Below, piece by piece: positions 5,176 to 21,662 of a stretch of DNA of 64,000 nt (the first letter of the stretch is position 1; the number at the start of each line of letters is the position of its first letter). A program made the translations under genes and the position numbers. Under the pieces are notes generated by a model. It saw only the letters and a list, made by a program, of their open reading frames with translations, did no database searches and was not told where the DNA came from. The stretch is from an archaeon (lineage in GTDB: Archaea > Nanobdellota > Nanobdellia > Woesearchaeales > GW2011-AR9): contig JAHFQW010000001.1 of NCBI GenBank assembly GCA_023259115.1, positions 17,929-81,928 of the forward strand, read 5' to 3'.

Positions 5176-5225
5176 CATTAAATGTAACGAATACCACAAA
5201 AACGTATCAAAGAAAATAAAAATAA

Positions 5226-5335
5226 GCCCCTGGCGAGATTTGAACTCGCGACCTCGTCCTCATTGTCTTTTCATTAAAAACATCTTTCCAACAAAACATA
5301 CCAAGGACGCGCTATAGCCACTAAGCCACAGGGGC
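5226..5335 (-). tRNA. tRNA-Thr(GGT) with about 38-nt intron after position 37
   Basis: Acceptor GCCCCTG/CAGGGGC, D arm GCTTAGTGGCTATAGC, anticodon stem CGTCC/GGACG with TT-GGT-A, intron about 5261-5298, T arm GAGTTCAAATCTC, discriminator U. Confidence 0.85.
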
Positions 5336-5422: not shown

Positions 5423-5547
5423 TGCCGGGGAAGGGATTTGAACCCTCGAACCCACTAAGAGACAGGATATCTTCTCTTCTGCACAAACAGAAGTGTCTTT
5501 CTGGGTACTTAAGTCCTGCGCATTTGGCCAAGCTTTGCTACCCCGGC
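5423..5547 (-). tRNA. tRNA-Leu(TAA) with about 39-nt intron after position 37
   Basis: Acceptor GCCGGGG/CCCCGGC, anticodon stem CAGGA/TCCTG with CT-TAA-G, intron about 5469-5507, long variable arm, T arm AGGGTTCAAATCCCT. Confidence 0.85.
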
Positions 5548-13943: not shown

Positions 13944-15011
13944 TTACTCACTTAACTCCACTTGACTTTTAAACTGTCCTAAAAACTTCTCCCAATCTTC
14001 TTCTTTGATAACGGCACCGCACGCATTCTGATGCCCTCCCCCATATCCCTGTACCCCTTCCAACGCTTTCTCAACCGCTGAAAGTATGGGAAACTGCGCT
14101 CGCAAGCTCGACTTATACTCCCCCGACTTCTTGCGTGCAATGATAATCACTTTCTGTGGATATAACGCCATGAGTTCATTAGCCAAATTCGCTGTAAACG
14201 ACCACTCCGTCTCCGTATAATAAAACAACACCAGTTTACTCTTAGTCACTTCCTTCTTCGCCAGCTTCAACAACCCTTCATATTTATGATCAAGCATCTC
14301 AAAGCGTTTCCATAAAAAATTTCCCTGCGCTGTTGTCTGTAAAAACACTTCATCAGGAGATTCCAAACGCATCAAAATCTTAATGGACTTATGCACATCT
14401 TGACTTTTGCCTTTCAACAAAAAGAAAAACATCTTAACTAACTTTCCTAACTTCTGATAATACATCGCATCTGTTAAATCCTTCTTCTCAGATAAATAGG
14501 TTGGATATTTCAACACAAACGAATCAATAAAATCAGGCATATACCAATCCGCAATACACCCAGAAGTCGCAATCCATAAATCCAAAGGATTACCTGCAAC
14601 ATCACCCGTCACTTGATACGCCATACGCGACGTTGGCACATACGCATTTGCATCCGCAATACGCGGATTAAAATAATGAATATGTTCTCTCTTGAGCGGC
14701 TGATGATGATCAATCCAAAAAATGGGTCGCATCACCGCATCAATAAACTCTTGTTCCACAATCGGCACATCCAACACAAAAATCTTATCCGGATTGATCT
14801 CCAAGACTTTATTCACAAGCCGATGATCCAGCTTTGGCGCCGTCTTCAAAGCCAACCCCCTCCCTAACTTCTTAAAACGATATAATAACAGAAACGAACA
14901 CAACCCATCCGCATCATCATCATGGATAAAGAGGGGATTCTTCGCCGTTTCCAATTCTTCCCGTAAAAAGCGGATTTGTTCAACAGATAGCATAGAGGTG
15001 CATATTCCCAT
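13944..15011 (-). CDS. DHH-family phosphoesterase (RecJ-like)
   Basis: FIHDDDADGLCSFLLL...PIFWIDHHQPL...VQGYGGGHQNACGAV: DHH/DHHA1 motifs. Confidence 0.85.
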   Translation of the reverse strand: MGICTSMLSVEQIRFLREELETAKNPLFIHDDDADGLCSFLLLYRFKKLGRGLALKTAPKLDHRLVNKVLEINPDKIFVLDVPIVEQEFIDAVMRPIFWIDHHQPLKREHIHYFNPRIADANAYVPTSRMAYQVTGDVAGNPLDLWIATSGCIADWYMPDFIDSFVLKYPTYLSEKKDLTDAMYYQKLGKLVKMFFFLLKGKSQDVHKSIKILMRLESPDEVFLQTTAQGNFLWKRFEMLDHKYEGLLKLAKKEVTKSKLVLFYYTETEWSFTANLANELMALYPQKVIIIARKKSGEYKSSLRAQFPILSAVEKALEGVQGYGGGHQNACGAVIKEEDWEKFLGQFKSQVELSE

Positions 15012-15059
15012 CCGCTTTTTAAAGGTTGGGGTGGATAAAATCGCATGTTCTAAAGAATG

Positions 15060-15200
15060 TATAGATACGGCAGTAATTTATCGAACATATAAAAGCCGTA
15101 TCTATATGCGGGGAAACCGCCGTTTCCTGCATGCCAGAAATCGTAGTTTCTGTGCATAGGGCGGCACTAACTATTTGTTCGATTAATTAGTGCCGCACGT
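15060..15200. repeat. Nested-hairpin module 1
   Basis: ATAGATACGGC/GCCGTATCTAT (15061-15071/15095-15105), GGAAAC/GTTTCC (15112-15117/15122-15127), CAGAAA/TTTCTG (15135-15140/15147-15152), GCGGCACTAA/TTAGTGCCGC (15161-15170/15187-15196). Confidence 0.75.
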
Positions 15201-15330
15201 ATACCAAAATCTAAAGCAAATTATTTAAAGAACATTTCTTAAGTTAGAAAGATGTACATCCATAATCAAAAAATTAAGAAATGGCATGGTTACATTGGCA
15301 AAGAAGAAACAGATAAAACCATGGATGAAT

Positions 15331-15545
15331 TATACTAAAAGCACGAAATATTTGTATACACAAAATGTGAAGAATATCACATTTGTGCACCAATGAAATC
15401 GTCGTTTCATTGTGTGTTTGTTCGTGCTTTTATACACAAAGCAAAGAAACGACTTTGCTTGTGCACAAATGGAATCGTTATTCCATTTTGTGTATACAAA
15501 GGCACTAACTATTTCGTACGATTAATTAGTGCCTTTGGTATACGA
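15331..15545. repeat. Nested-hairpin module 2
   Basis: AAAAGCACGAA/TTCGTGCTTTT (15337-15347/15421-15431) encloses AAATGTGA/TCACATTT and CAATGAAA/TTTCATTG; TATACACAAA/TTTGTGTATA (15431-15440/15487-15496) encloses AAGCAAAG/CTTTGCTT and AAATGGAAT/ATTCCATTT; then CAAAGGCACTAA/TTAGTGCCTTTG (15497-15508/15526-15537). Confidence 0.75.
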
Positions 15546-15613
15546 TAAAAGAAAGATTAACACAATCTTATAACTTCTTATTTTTTCATTACTATTTAAA
15601 AATGATAAAAATA

Positions 15614-15652: not shown

Positions 15653-17236
15653 ATGAGCGATTCCCAAAAAAGTACTATCGAACAAACCACCACTCCAGCC
15701 ATAAAAACCGGCACTATTCTCATTCAAGACACGAAACGCACATTTGAAATTGAAGGTACCAAATATCAAGAACTTGCAACATTAGGCTCAACTACCACAA
15801 ATCGTACCTATCTCGTTCAAGGCCCAAACGGCAAAGCCGTCATCAAATCATTAAACGATCGTATAACCACAACACAAAACATCCAAGACCAAACCAAAGC
15901 CATGGAACTCTTTGAACGCGAAGCCGCCCTCTTAGCCCGTCTAGATCATCCTCAAATCCCCAAACTCTATCAATGTTTTCAAGCCCCAGATGCCGATGGA
16001 AGAATTGGACAGTACCTCATGCAAGAACATTTTGAAAGCAAAAATCTCGAAGCTCTCCTCCAACAACGCACTAAAATAACCCCGCAAGAAGCCATCAGTA
16101 TTCTTCTCTCCGTCATAAAACCTCTAGAATATATTCACTCCCACAACCCCCCAATCATTCATCGCGACATAAAACCCGCCAATATATTATGGGATGGCAT
16201 TGAAGCCAAACTCGTTGACCTCGGCTCCGCCCTAGATAAAAAACACGATTCCCTTGGCGGTTCCACCATCGCCGGAACTCGTGGCTACATGGCTCCTGAA
16301 CAATGGATTGGCTCCGCCGCACCTCAATCAGACATCTATAGTCTTGGCGCCACTCTGCTTCGTCTCATCACCGGCATCCCTATCGAAACTCTCTATGACG
16401 AAAAAGCCACAAAATTTGAAAAACGCTTCGCCATCCAATACAAAGAAAAAGTCGGAGAGAACATACCTCCCGATTTGCAAACCATCCTAGATAACTGCCT
16501 CCAATTCGATACCGACAAACGCTATACATCTATAACAGAATTACACACCGCACTAGAAACATATCTGGACACAACAGCAGCCTCACCACAAAAGAGAACA
16601 AAAGAAATCAAAAACAACAAAACATCCTCAATTCAACCAAAATTGATGGTAGGAATAATGGTTCTAGCAACCGTAGCAGTTATGGGAATAGTAGAGATGT
16701 CGGATTATAGAAAAAAACACTTCCACACCCTCTCCCAAAACGAAGTCGCCATCTTAATAGATGACAAAGGCAATTACCGAGAAGATACAGAATGCAAAAA
16801 TCCTCCTTTTTCAGGACTACAAGTCAAACACCCCAGCGACACCGTCATCGAATACACCACACCCAACCATGTCAGCACCATTCAGACCTTCAATAAAATA
16901 CCCCTCTACAGCGTGCTTCACTATAGAATCACCGACCCCGTTAACATTCACACCATCATGAACATGTATGATCGCTCACACCAAAGTATGGGCAATAACT
17001 CTGAACAATATCCTAATCCAACTAAACTCACCCTCTTCCTAGAAGACTTTTTGCAGCAAGAGGTTGCCAACTACTTCAAAGAACACCCCAACACCAACAT
17101 AGAAAAATCAACCAATCCCTCCCAAACCGACCCCCTCGATGACTACATCAAAAAATCCTGCCAACTCAAACTCCCTCGTGGCCTCGAATGTATCTCCTAT
17201 GAATGGACTAAAGGCATATCACTTCCCGCACAATAA
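15653..17236 (+). CDS. Membrane Ser/Thr protein kinase with C-terminal SPFH/band-7-like region
   Basis: IIHRDIKPANILWDG, DLGSALDKK, GTRGYMAPEQW kinase motifs; one TM (MVGIMVLATVAVMGIVEM); then VIEYTTPNHVSTIQTFNKIPLYSVLHYRITDP. Confidence 0.8.
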   Translation: MSDSQKSTIEQTTTPAIKTGTILIQDTKRTFEIEGTKYQELATLGSTTTNRTYLVQGPNGKAVIKSLNDRITTTQNIQDQTKAMELFEREAALLARLDHPQIPKLYQCFQAPDADGRIGQYLMQEHFESKNLEALLQQRTKITPQEAISILLSVIKPLEYIHSHNPPIIHRDIKPANILWDGIEAKLVDLGSALDKKHDSLGGSTIAGTRGYMAPEQWIGSAAPQSDIYSLGATLLRLITGIPIETLYDEKATKFEKRFAIQYKEKVGENIPPDLQTILDNCLQFDTDKRYTSITELHTALETYLDTTAASPQKRTKEIKNNKTSSIQPKLMVGIMVLATVAVMGIVEMSDYRKKHFHTLSQNEVAILIDDKGNYREDTECKNPPFSGLQVKHPSDTVIEYTTPNHVSTIQTFNKIPLYSVLHYRITDPVNIHTIMNMYDRSHQSMGNNSEQYPNPTKLTLFLEDFLQQEVANYFKEHPNTNIEKSTNPSQTDPLDDYIKKSCQLKLPRGLECISYEWTKGISLPAQ

Positions 17237-20405: not shown

Positions 20406-21662
20406 TCATTGATTCTCACGTTCACTCCCAAGTCTTGCTGCAATCGCATTGGCCACATCATCCCCAGCTTCAAACGTCTCACGAATTCGAACAAGTCGAT
20501 TGGCACTATCCGATCTTGCACTAGTTGAAAGCCCACCAACTAATGGCTCCTGGCGCGTTGCCGCAAAATCTATTTTTTTCACAGACTTTTCTTTTGGCCT
20601 ATAACAACTTATTTTTCCATCCAAAATATCCGTAGAGATTGCCAGCAACGAATTCAAATCTCTCTTCTCAATATCCCCCTGTAACAACTGTGCTACTGCT
20701 TCCACAAATTGCATTTGAAATGCCGAATTATCAATCATCTTCTGATACACAAATGCAATATCCGTATCACCAATTTGTTTTCGAACAATTCCCGAGAAAG
20801 GTAGTTCTCCCGTAATTTCTGCATATAACACAGCGCCCAAAGACCACCTATCTGCATAAACACGACTCTGATTTCCCCATATAACTTCCGGCGCCAAATA
20901 ACCTGCCGTTCCAATCGCCAATCCCACATCACGCGTATCATCAACTCGACAAGCCGTACCAAAATCCACCAAAGAAAAAATCGATTTGCCCGCCTCTTTT
21001 GCTTTACGTAAAATATTTCCTCTCTTCACATCACGATGTAAAATTCCCCATTTTTCTAACAACTGTAAATTCTCACACATATCTTTAGCTAACTTCACTG
21101 TATCCAACGGATGAATCAAACCCATATCAGATTCATGAGGTGTGACATACCTCTTATTTTTATCATCTAAACAAACTCCCTTTTTCTCTTTCATAAGCGT
21201 TCGCAAATATAACGTGTCATCTAGATAAAATAACTCCGCATTCTTACCCGTATCTCGACAAAATACCCGTCGTACAAAACGCTCTGGTGTATCTTGCTGC
21301 GCCAAATAATCCAAAATCTCAACCTGCCGCAACTTAAATCGAATATCATGTTGCTCTTTTGAAGATAATTGATATTTCTGCCCATCACATTCTAATACCT
21401 CTCCCGAAAAACCATACTCCTGCACAGGCCGTAACCCTTGGGAAAAATGTTCAGAGAAACTGTGAGAATTACGAGCGCCCGAAAGAACAGGCTCAATTTT
21501 AGTCAAAATGCTCGCACCCTCAAAAGTATACTGTTCACGTAAAACAACTGCTCCCAAATCATGCACCAACTCTTTCTTATCAAAACAAAATCGTTCTGCT
21601 AAATGAGGTATATTCTTAGCATAGCGAGATAACTTTTTGTATAATGACATTTCTTCAGACAT
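20406..21662 (-). CDS. Ser/Thr protein kinase
   Basis: GILHRDVKRGNILRKA, LVDFGTACR, GTAGYLAPEVIWG; upstream TTTATAAATGG on - strand. Confidence 0.85.
   Translation of the reverse strand: MSEEMSLYKKLSRYAKNIPHLAERFCFDKKELVHDLGAVVLREQYTFEGASILTKIEPVLSGARNSHSFSEHFSQGLRPVQEYGFSGEVLECDGQKYQLSSKEQHDIRFKLRQVEILDYLAQQDTPERFVRRVFCRDTGKNAELFYLDDTLYLRTLMKEKKGVCLDDKNKRYVTPHESDMGLIHPLDTVKLAKDMCENLQLLEKWGILHRDVKRGNILRKAKEAGKSIFSLVDFGTACRVDDTRDVGLAIGTAGYLAPEVIWGNQSRVYADRWSLGAVLYAEITGELPFSGIVRKQIGDTDIAFVYQKMIDNSAFQMQFVEAVAQLLQGDIEKRDLNSLLAISTDILDGKISCYRPKEKSVKKIDFAATRQEPLVGGLSTSARSDSANRLVRIRETFEAGDDVANAIAARLGSERENQ

Follow-up and report, generated by a model that had tools for sequence, protein, structure and literature searches.

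Two neighboring hairpin-rich modules, M1 and M2, which lie in the 64,000-nucleotide stretch of an archaeal genome analyzed here (the window), are very probably nested, non-autonomous IS630-type MITEs. These elements are repeated, dispersed, inserted into one another and flanked by TA; they are built of two hairpins whose stems carry compensatory changes, and their ends are IS630-like. They form a recursively nested and apparently recently active MITE population in the small genome of an uncultured DPANN archaeon of Woesearchaeota type.

Architecture and surroundings of the two modules

M2 is a composite A-type MITE that occupies positions 15331..15542 of the plus strand, its flanking TA copies included, as delimited by BLAST against the minimal copies L026 and L027. 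The element proper spans ~15333-15540 and the flanking TA copies lie at 15331-15332 and 15541-15542, a duplication that we infer from the comparison of a nested copy (in L009) with an intact M1. The left-end hairpin H1 (15336..15432, plus strand) was recognized by repeat search and by comparison with the insert-free H1 of L026 and L027. In the repeat search its stem, TAAAAGCACGAA/TTCGTGCTTTTA, paired 15336-15347 with 15421-15432 perfectly over 12 bp, and its loop is interrupted by an insert, B1. The right-end hairpin H2, CAAAGGCACTAA...TTAGTGCCTTTG (15497..15537, plus strand), was recovered by repeat search and by R1, a covariance model of H2 (73.4 bits); its arms of 15 nt (CAAAGGCACTAACTA...TAATTAGTGCCTTTG) show 93% complementarity. 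No ORF of at least 90 aa was found at the element.

Two double hairpins are inserted in M2. B1 (56 bp, loops AGAATA and TCGTCG; 15359..15414, plus strand) interrupts the H1 loop at a TA, is missing from L026 and L027, and was found in L009, L019, L020, L021, and L024. B2 (58 bp, loops AAACGA and CGTT; 15435..15492, minus strand) sits at the H1/H2 junction and was found in no M2 copies other than those of the window and L009. The reverse complement of B1 shares ~80% identity with B2, and the two thus belong to one family in opposite orientations. The insertion of B1 was probably the earlier one, because B1 is common to six M2 copies and B2 only to those of the window and L009.

M1, a sister A-type MITE (15060..15203, plus strand), was delimited by BLAST to the minimal M1 copies L010, L022, L031, and L032, which are free of inserts, and its R1 score was 72.0 bits. 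Its H1 spans 15060-15106 and its H2 15157-15203. Between them, at the H1/H2 junction, lies a 50-bp double hairpin (GCGGGGAAACCGCCGTTTCCTGC / GCCAGAAATCGTAGTTTCTGTGC; 15107..15156, plus strand) that is missing from the minimal M1 copies and present in L014. The R1 matches of the window, at 15155-15203 (72 bits) and 15493-15542 (73 bits), fall on both modules, which confirms that M2 is a paralogue of M1 as the sequence-only reading had proposed.

The predicted fold of the plus strand has an MFE of -78.3, compared to a mean of -41.6 for shuffled sequences (z -8.96), and none of 200 shuffles was as stable; the minus strand folded at least as stably (z -11.1 vs shuffled). The hairpins are thus far beyond chance, and the terminal hairpin and the four inner ones that had been described from the letters alone were all located. 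Of the two enclosing stems of 11 and 10 bp described in that reading, the first stands, as the perfect 12-bp stem of H1. The second, TATACACAAA.../...TTTGTGTATA, is an inverted repeat in competition with the two hairpins that it encloses, and the predicted fold forms the inner pair instead.

The modules are located between a gene for a DHH-DHHA1 phosphoesterase-type protein (13944..15011, minus strand; Pfam) and a divergently oriented gene for a protein kinase domain protein (15653..17236, plus strand; Pfam PF00069, E 7.7e-37), and, as judged by eye, sit 5' of the TATA-like box of each. In eight relatives (synteny loci L129-L137), the region 5' of the DHH gene had neither an R1 match nor a neighboring kinase, so that the insertion at this place is, to judge from these loci, particular to the window lineage. 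A locus that was alike in all relatives, with no copies elsewhere, had been named as the outcome that would speak against the earlier proposals; the module-free relatives and the many copies described below are the opposite of this. A second protein-kinase-domain gene (20406-21662) lies less than 5 kb from that at 15653-17236, on the opposite strand. The window also harbors two tRNA genes on the minus strand (5225-5335 and 5423-5547), whose spans of 111 and 125 bases, against a model of 71 positions, suggest that both contain introns.

Dispersed copies, nesting, and target duplication

The genome that contains the window (G000) comprises 1,574,476 bases (1.57 Mb) in 54 contigs. When window positions 15040-15560 were used as a query against it, 73 matches were obtained on many contigs, and ~35 matching places were extracted and read; R1 gave 50 matches, both strands counted. 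The minimal element, of ~95 bp, consists of TATA, H1, a TATA-like spacer, H2, and TATA, with imperfect terminal inverted repeats such as TACTAAAAGCACGAAATATTCG / TACCAAAGGCACTAATTAATCG. The elements range from ~95 to 212 bp and are short, gene-less, dispersed, and multicopy, as MITEs are. Minimal, once-nested, and twice-nested versions are all present in this genome, and in L009 an entire M2 lies within the H2 loop of an M1 copy. Because these modules recur on further contigs and in further genomes, an assembly artefact can be dismissed.

Another unit, the "CAAG" cargo of 126-129 bp, occupies one junction of other elements; its 10 full copies are 88-100% identical and their flanks differ. In L012, L013, L016, L028-L030, and L036-L038 it sits at the same junction while the end hairpins of the hosts are wholly different (TATAGTAATGGTGAA..., TATAGATAACTGTG..., GATAATTGCG...), and these hosts look as if their ends had been swapped around a retained cargo. 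At L039:1968-2156, a B-type double hairpin with no TA at its borders lies within a larger palindromic unit that has ACGTATTAAGTCTGCCCAC ends. An insertion sequence bounded by ACGTATTAAGTCTGCCCAC was looked for by eye near L024 and L039, and no pair of such ends around a transposase-like frame was recognized.

Comparison of occupied and empty sites revealed the target. The intact M1 of L022 reads ...AATCGAA-TA-TTTTGT..., and the copy in L009 reads AATCGAA-TA-(M2)-TA-TTTTGT, with TA duplicated. Similarly, the CAAG cargo of L037 (CTAA-TA-(CAAG...CTTG)-TA-AATAAAC) has an empty counterpart in L031 (CTAA-TA-AATAAAC), again with TA duplicated, and L036 against L015 agrees; in both pairs the cargo lies within a Z-type element. 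Where M2 lies within another repeat (L024 and L020), comparison with two uninserted counterparts (L022 and L026) gave CA or CC and not TA on the left side, which is compatible with TA duplication only if the left TA has mutated. Clean comparisons thus displayed target-site duplication with empty sites, as expected of MITEs, and a duplicated TA, as expected of the IS630 type. The many dispersed copies, the empty sites, and the composites at different loci bear out the "mobile palindromes" among the earlier suggestions.

A hairpin at each end, with stems conserved in structure and not in sequence, could also point to Y1-type single-strand DNA transposition (IS200/IS605 or REP/RAYT), in which H1 and H2 would be the left- and right-end recognition hairpins. 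IS200/IS605-derived and REP/REPIN elements do have such end-hairpin pairs and a structure-like conservation. IS200/IS605 insertions, however, make no target duplication, whereas the insertions described here have TA on both sides with TA duplicated, and their ends resemble IS630 terminal repeats. Moreover, the search for a Y1 transposase that the sequence-only reading had advised gave no PF01797 match in our genome although control genomes were positive. We consider this explanation very improbable, and the same observations do not support the idea of a hairpin-DNA recombination site, understood as a site-specific system. No cassette array was seen near the copies that were read, and the duplication of TA argues against an integron attC site.

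IS630 ends and a model of mobilization

An IS630-type MITE usually, although not necessarily, shares its genome with an IS630 transposase. Neither a PF13358 (DDE_3) match nor a related transposase was detected in the 54-contig MAG that is our genome, and tblastn with an IS630 transposase came back empty. The contig ends C47:1 and C30:1 and the ends of C5, C32, and C42 lie within or beside these repeats. Several contigs end in this way, so that longer copies with a transposase may be concealed where repeats broke the assembly. The domain is present in 4 of 49 genomes of the family and 32 of 352 genomes of the order, and the transposases of L096 and L100 are IS630 (NCBIfam NF033545, E ~1e-64). 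Several IS630 elements of the order are ~1.0-1.1 kb long with inverted ends at TA.

One set of IS630 ends in the order reads TATAGATAACTGCG..., and 17 nt of them are repeated in Z-type MITEs of our genome: the Z-type MITE starts TATAGATAACTGCGCAA, which over 17 nt matches the end of a G258 IS630 exactly. Another TA-bounded set of terminal repeats in the order reads TAGTMAGCGACATAAATAAT. With a profile of this second set, the left end of L086, both ends of L087, and the left end of L090 outscored every one of the 8,693 background TA sites; the two M2 ends ranked in the top 1-3% of TA sites and the M1 ends in the top 2-10%, a likeness that is modest by itself (single-site p 0.013-0.096). An order-wide search for the exact M2 end, GGCACTAAWTAATCG, returned MITEs of G000 and G054 only, and none of the 352 genomes of the order yielded an autonomous element that carries it. 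The case for linking M1 and M2 to IS630 rests on the TA duplication together with a chain of sequence similarity that runs through relatives (L086, L087, and L090) and not on a direct match. Co-occurrence of the MITEs with IS630 among family genomes was weak (3/11 R1-positive vs 0/19 R1-negative genomes, p ~0.04).

In the model that we favor, the host is a ~95-bp A-type MITE in which each terminal repeat is followed by an inverted copy of its own outer 9-12 bp, giving one hairpin per end (H1 and H2). This MITE inserts at TA, which it duplicates. M2 was then entered by two members of a second family, the B-type double hairpins of ~60 bp: one lies in the H1 loop, at a TA, and the other, in the reverse orientation, where H1 and H2 meet. 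Most likely, the elements were mobilized in trans, with their terminal repeats as the substrate of an IS630-type DDE transposase. Since the assembly contains no such enzyme, it would be either lost or unassembled. Later, the short elements probably served others as safe places to land: TA is available in their AT-rich loops and junctions, and the host can lose them at no cost. It would be as DNA that the hairpin ends are maintained, because they help elements this short to transpose or because the pairing is renewed by hairpin-templated repair.

Stem covariation and comparison with known elements

The covariance search proposed in the sequence-only reading was carried out with R1, which matched our own genome and, among 371 genomes of the phylum, 13, of which 11 belong to the same family and 2 to the same order. 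Relatives share the architecture, with unrelated stem sequences. The sixteen elements compared consist of H1 and H2 between TATA borders; their stems pair although their sequences vary widely, and the stem length is 9-12 bp at both ends in every family examined. When an identical best-partner search was used for own and cross arms, H1 arms paired at 8.2/9 with their own partner and at 6.2 with the arms of other elements, a difference that none of 20,000 permutations reached. The covariation score of the H2 stem was 0.344, compared to 0.128 after shuffling. Overall, 388 of 420 stem pairs were Watson-Crick, the non-canonical ones included 4 G.U and 9 A.C, and no strand bias was seen.

The very stable fold and the compensatory stem changes could be taken as the mark of a structured non-coding RNA gene or a cis-regulatory RNA, the two paralogous modules being folded RNAs with a kissing contact between H1 and H2. 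The loops of H1 and H2 are indeed complementary, with a mean run of 7.5 within an element against 6.1 between elements (p 0.0016). This complementarity is, however, expected of inner terminal repeats anyway, and as the elements also show no strand bias, the kissing loop was not adopted. The two strands fold equally well, and the absence of a G.U excess over A.C speaks against selection on one RNA strand. Rfam offered no match for the modules, its scan of the window returning the two tRNAs only. The copies lie at unrelated loci and within one another, M1 and M2 are, by eye, placed 5' of the TATA-like boxes of both adjoining genes, and the eight relatives do not have the module in front of the DHH gene. 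The RNA explanation is therefore very improbable, and the "structured RNA" of the earlier reading found no specific support.

The hairpin ends belong to the miniature forms, and the autonomous IS630 ends of the same order are without them. The hairpin measure was 7.9/9 for MITE ends, 4.9 for autonomous IS630 ends, and 5.6 for shuffled sequences (Mann-Whitney p 6e-9, a value that ignores sequence kinship); the MITE examples were found by the H2 hairpin model, which builds in a bias for H2 and less so for H1. Because the autonomous ends have no hairpins, descent alone leaves those of the MITEs unexplained, and it is possible that the DNA hairpin itself has a role in transposition.

An explanation that is compatible with the MITE reading is that the stems of these IS630-type MITEs are unselected, quasipalindrome correction keeping the arms of functionless hairpins matched. 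Imperfect palindromes are known to mutate by such hairpin-templated correction, and the near-perfect Watson-Crick stems, with few wobbles and no strand bias, agree with it. Correction perfects palindromes, however, and leaves unexplained why they are positioned in this way in all miniature forms, with a stem at both ends in each family, when the autonomous ends of the clade have none. We regard unselected stems as possible but somewhat doubtful. It is unlikely that the DDE transposase of these elements or another enzyme recognizes the miniature ends by hairpin shape, with a stem that is free in sequence but paired and a loop that bears a specific motif. If true, movement would depend on extruded or single-stranded hairpin ends, a new mode for a relative of IS630/Tc1-mariner, and the B-type double hairpins would be a second, independent user of the design. 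The contrast between miniature and autonomous IS630 ends makes it testable whether MITE secondary structure is functional in transposition or a by-product of inverted repeats, a matter that is seldom questioned.

Mitochondrial double-hairpin elements (DHEs) are small mobile units of two adjacent hairpins; the likeness is one of architecture only, in different genomes and with no shown relation. The IS630-derived or Tc1-mariner-type MITEs, such as Correia of Neisseria, are also short and gene-less, with many intergenic copies and a stable hairpin structure. Correia-type MITEs have terminal inverted repeats that start with TATAG or TATA, and they duplicate TA. In contrast to these, each terminal repeat here is its own hairpin with a divergent stem, there are several levels of nesting, and the genome has no autonomous partner. 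A review presents Correia as the first prokaryotic MITE (PMC10969869), and MITEs are well documented in prokaryotes, archaea included (PMC10969869, PMC3718332). The MITEs SMN1 and SM3A of Sulfolobus are likewise archaeal and mobilized in trans but are larger and depend on ISC1733 and ISC1058; double-hairpin ends are not described for them in the parts of that work consulted (PMC3718332). The palindromic repeats M1 and M2 of pithovirus also combine two MITE-like families in a host with no known transposase, but they belong to an amoeba virus, are larger units, and form alternating arrays instead of inserting into hairpin loops (PMC10664404). No paper on MITEs in Woesearchaeota or DPANN was found in a literature that excludes most subscription journals. 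What is new here is the combination of hairpinned ends of free stem sequence with recursive nesting.

When genome and viral collections were scanned with a pattern, most matches were due to chance: none of the 9 viral matches was a true homologue, and the only true homologues were L055, L059, and L063. The element at L063:4500-4700 (MFTJ01000050.1) closely resembles the Woesearchaeota copy L059 in design and loops and lies on a contig binned as the bacterium Candidatus Nomurabacteria, which would reflect either a cross-domain transfer or a mis-binned archaeal contig.
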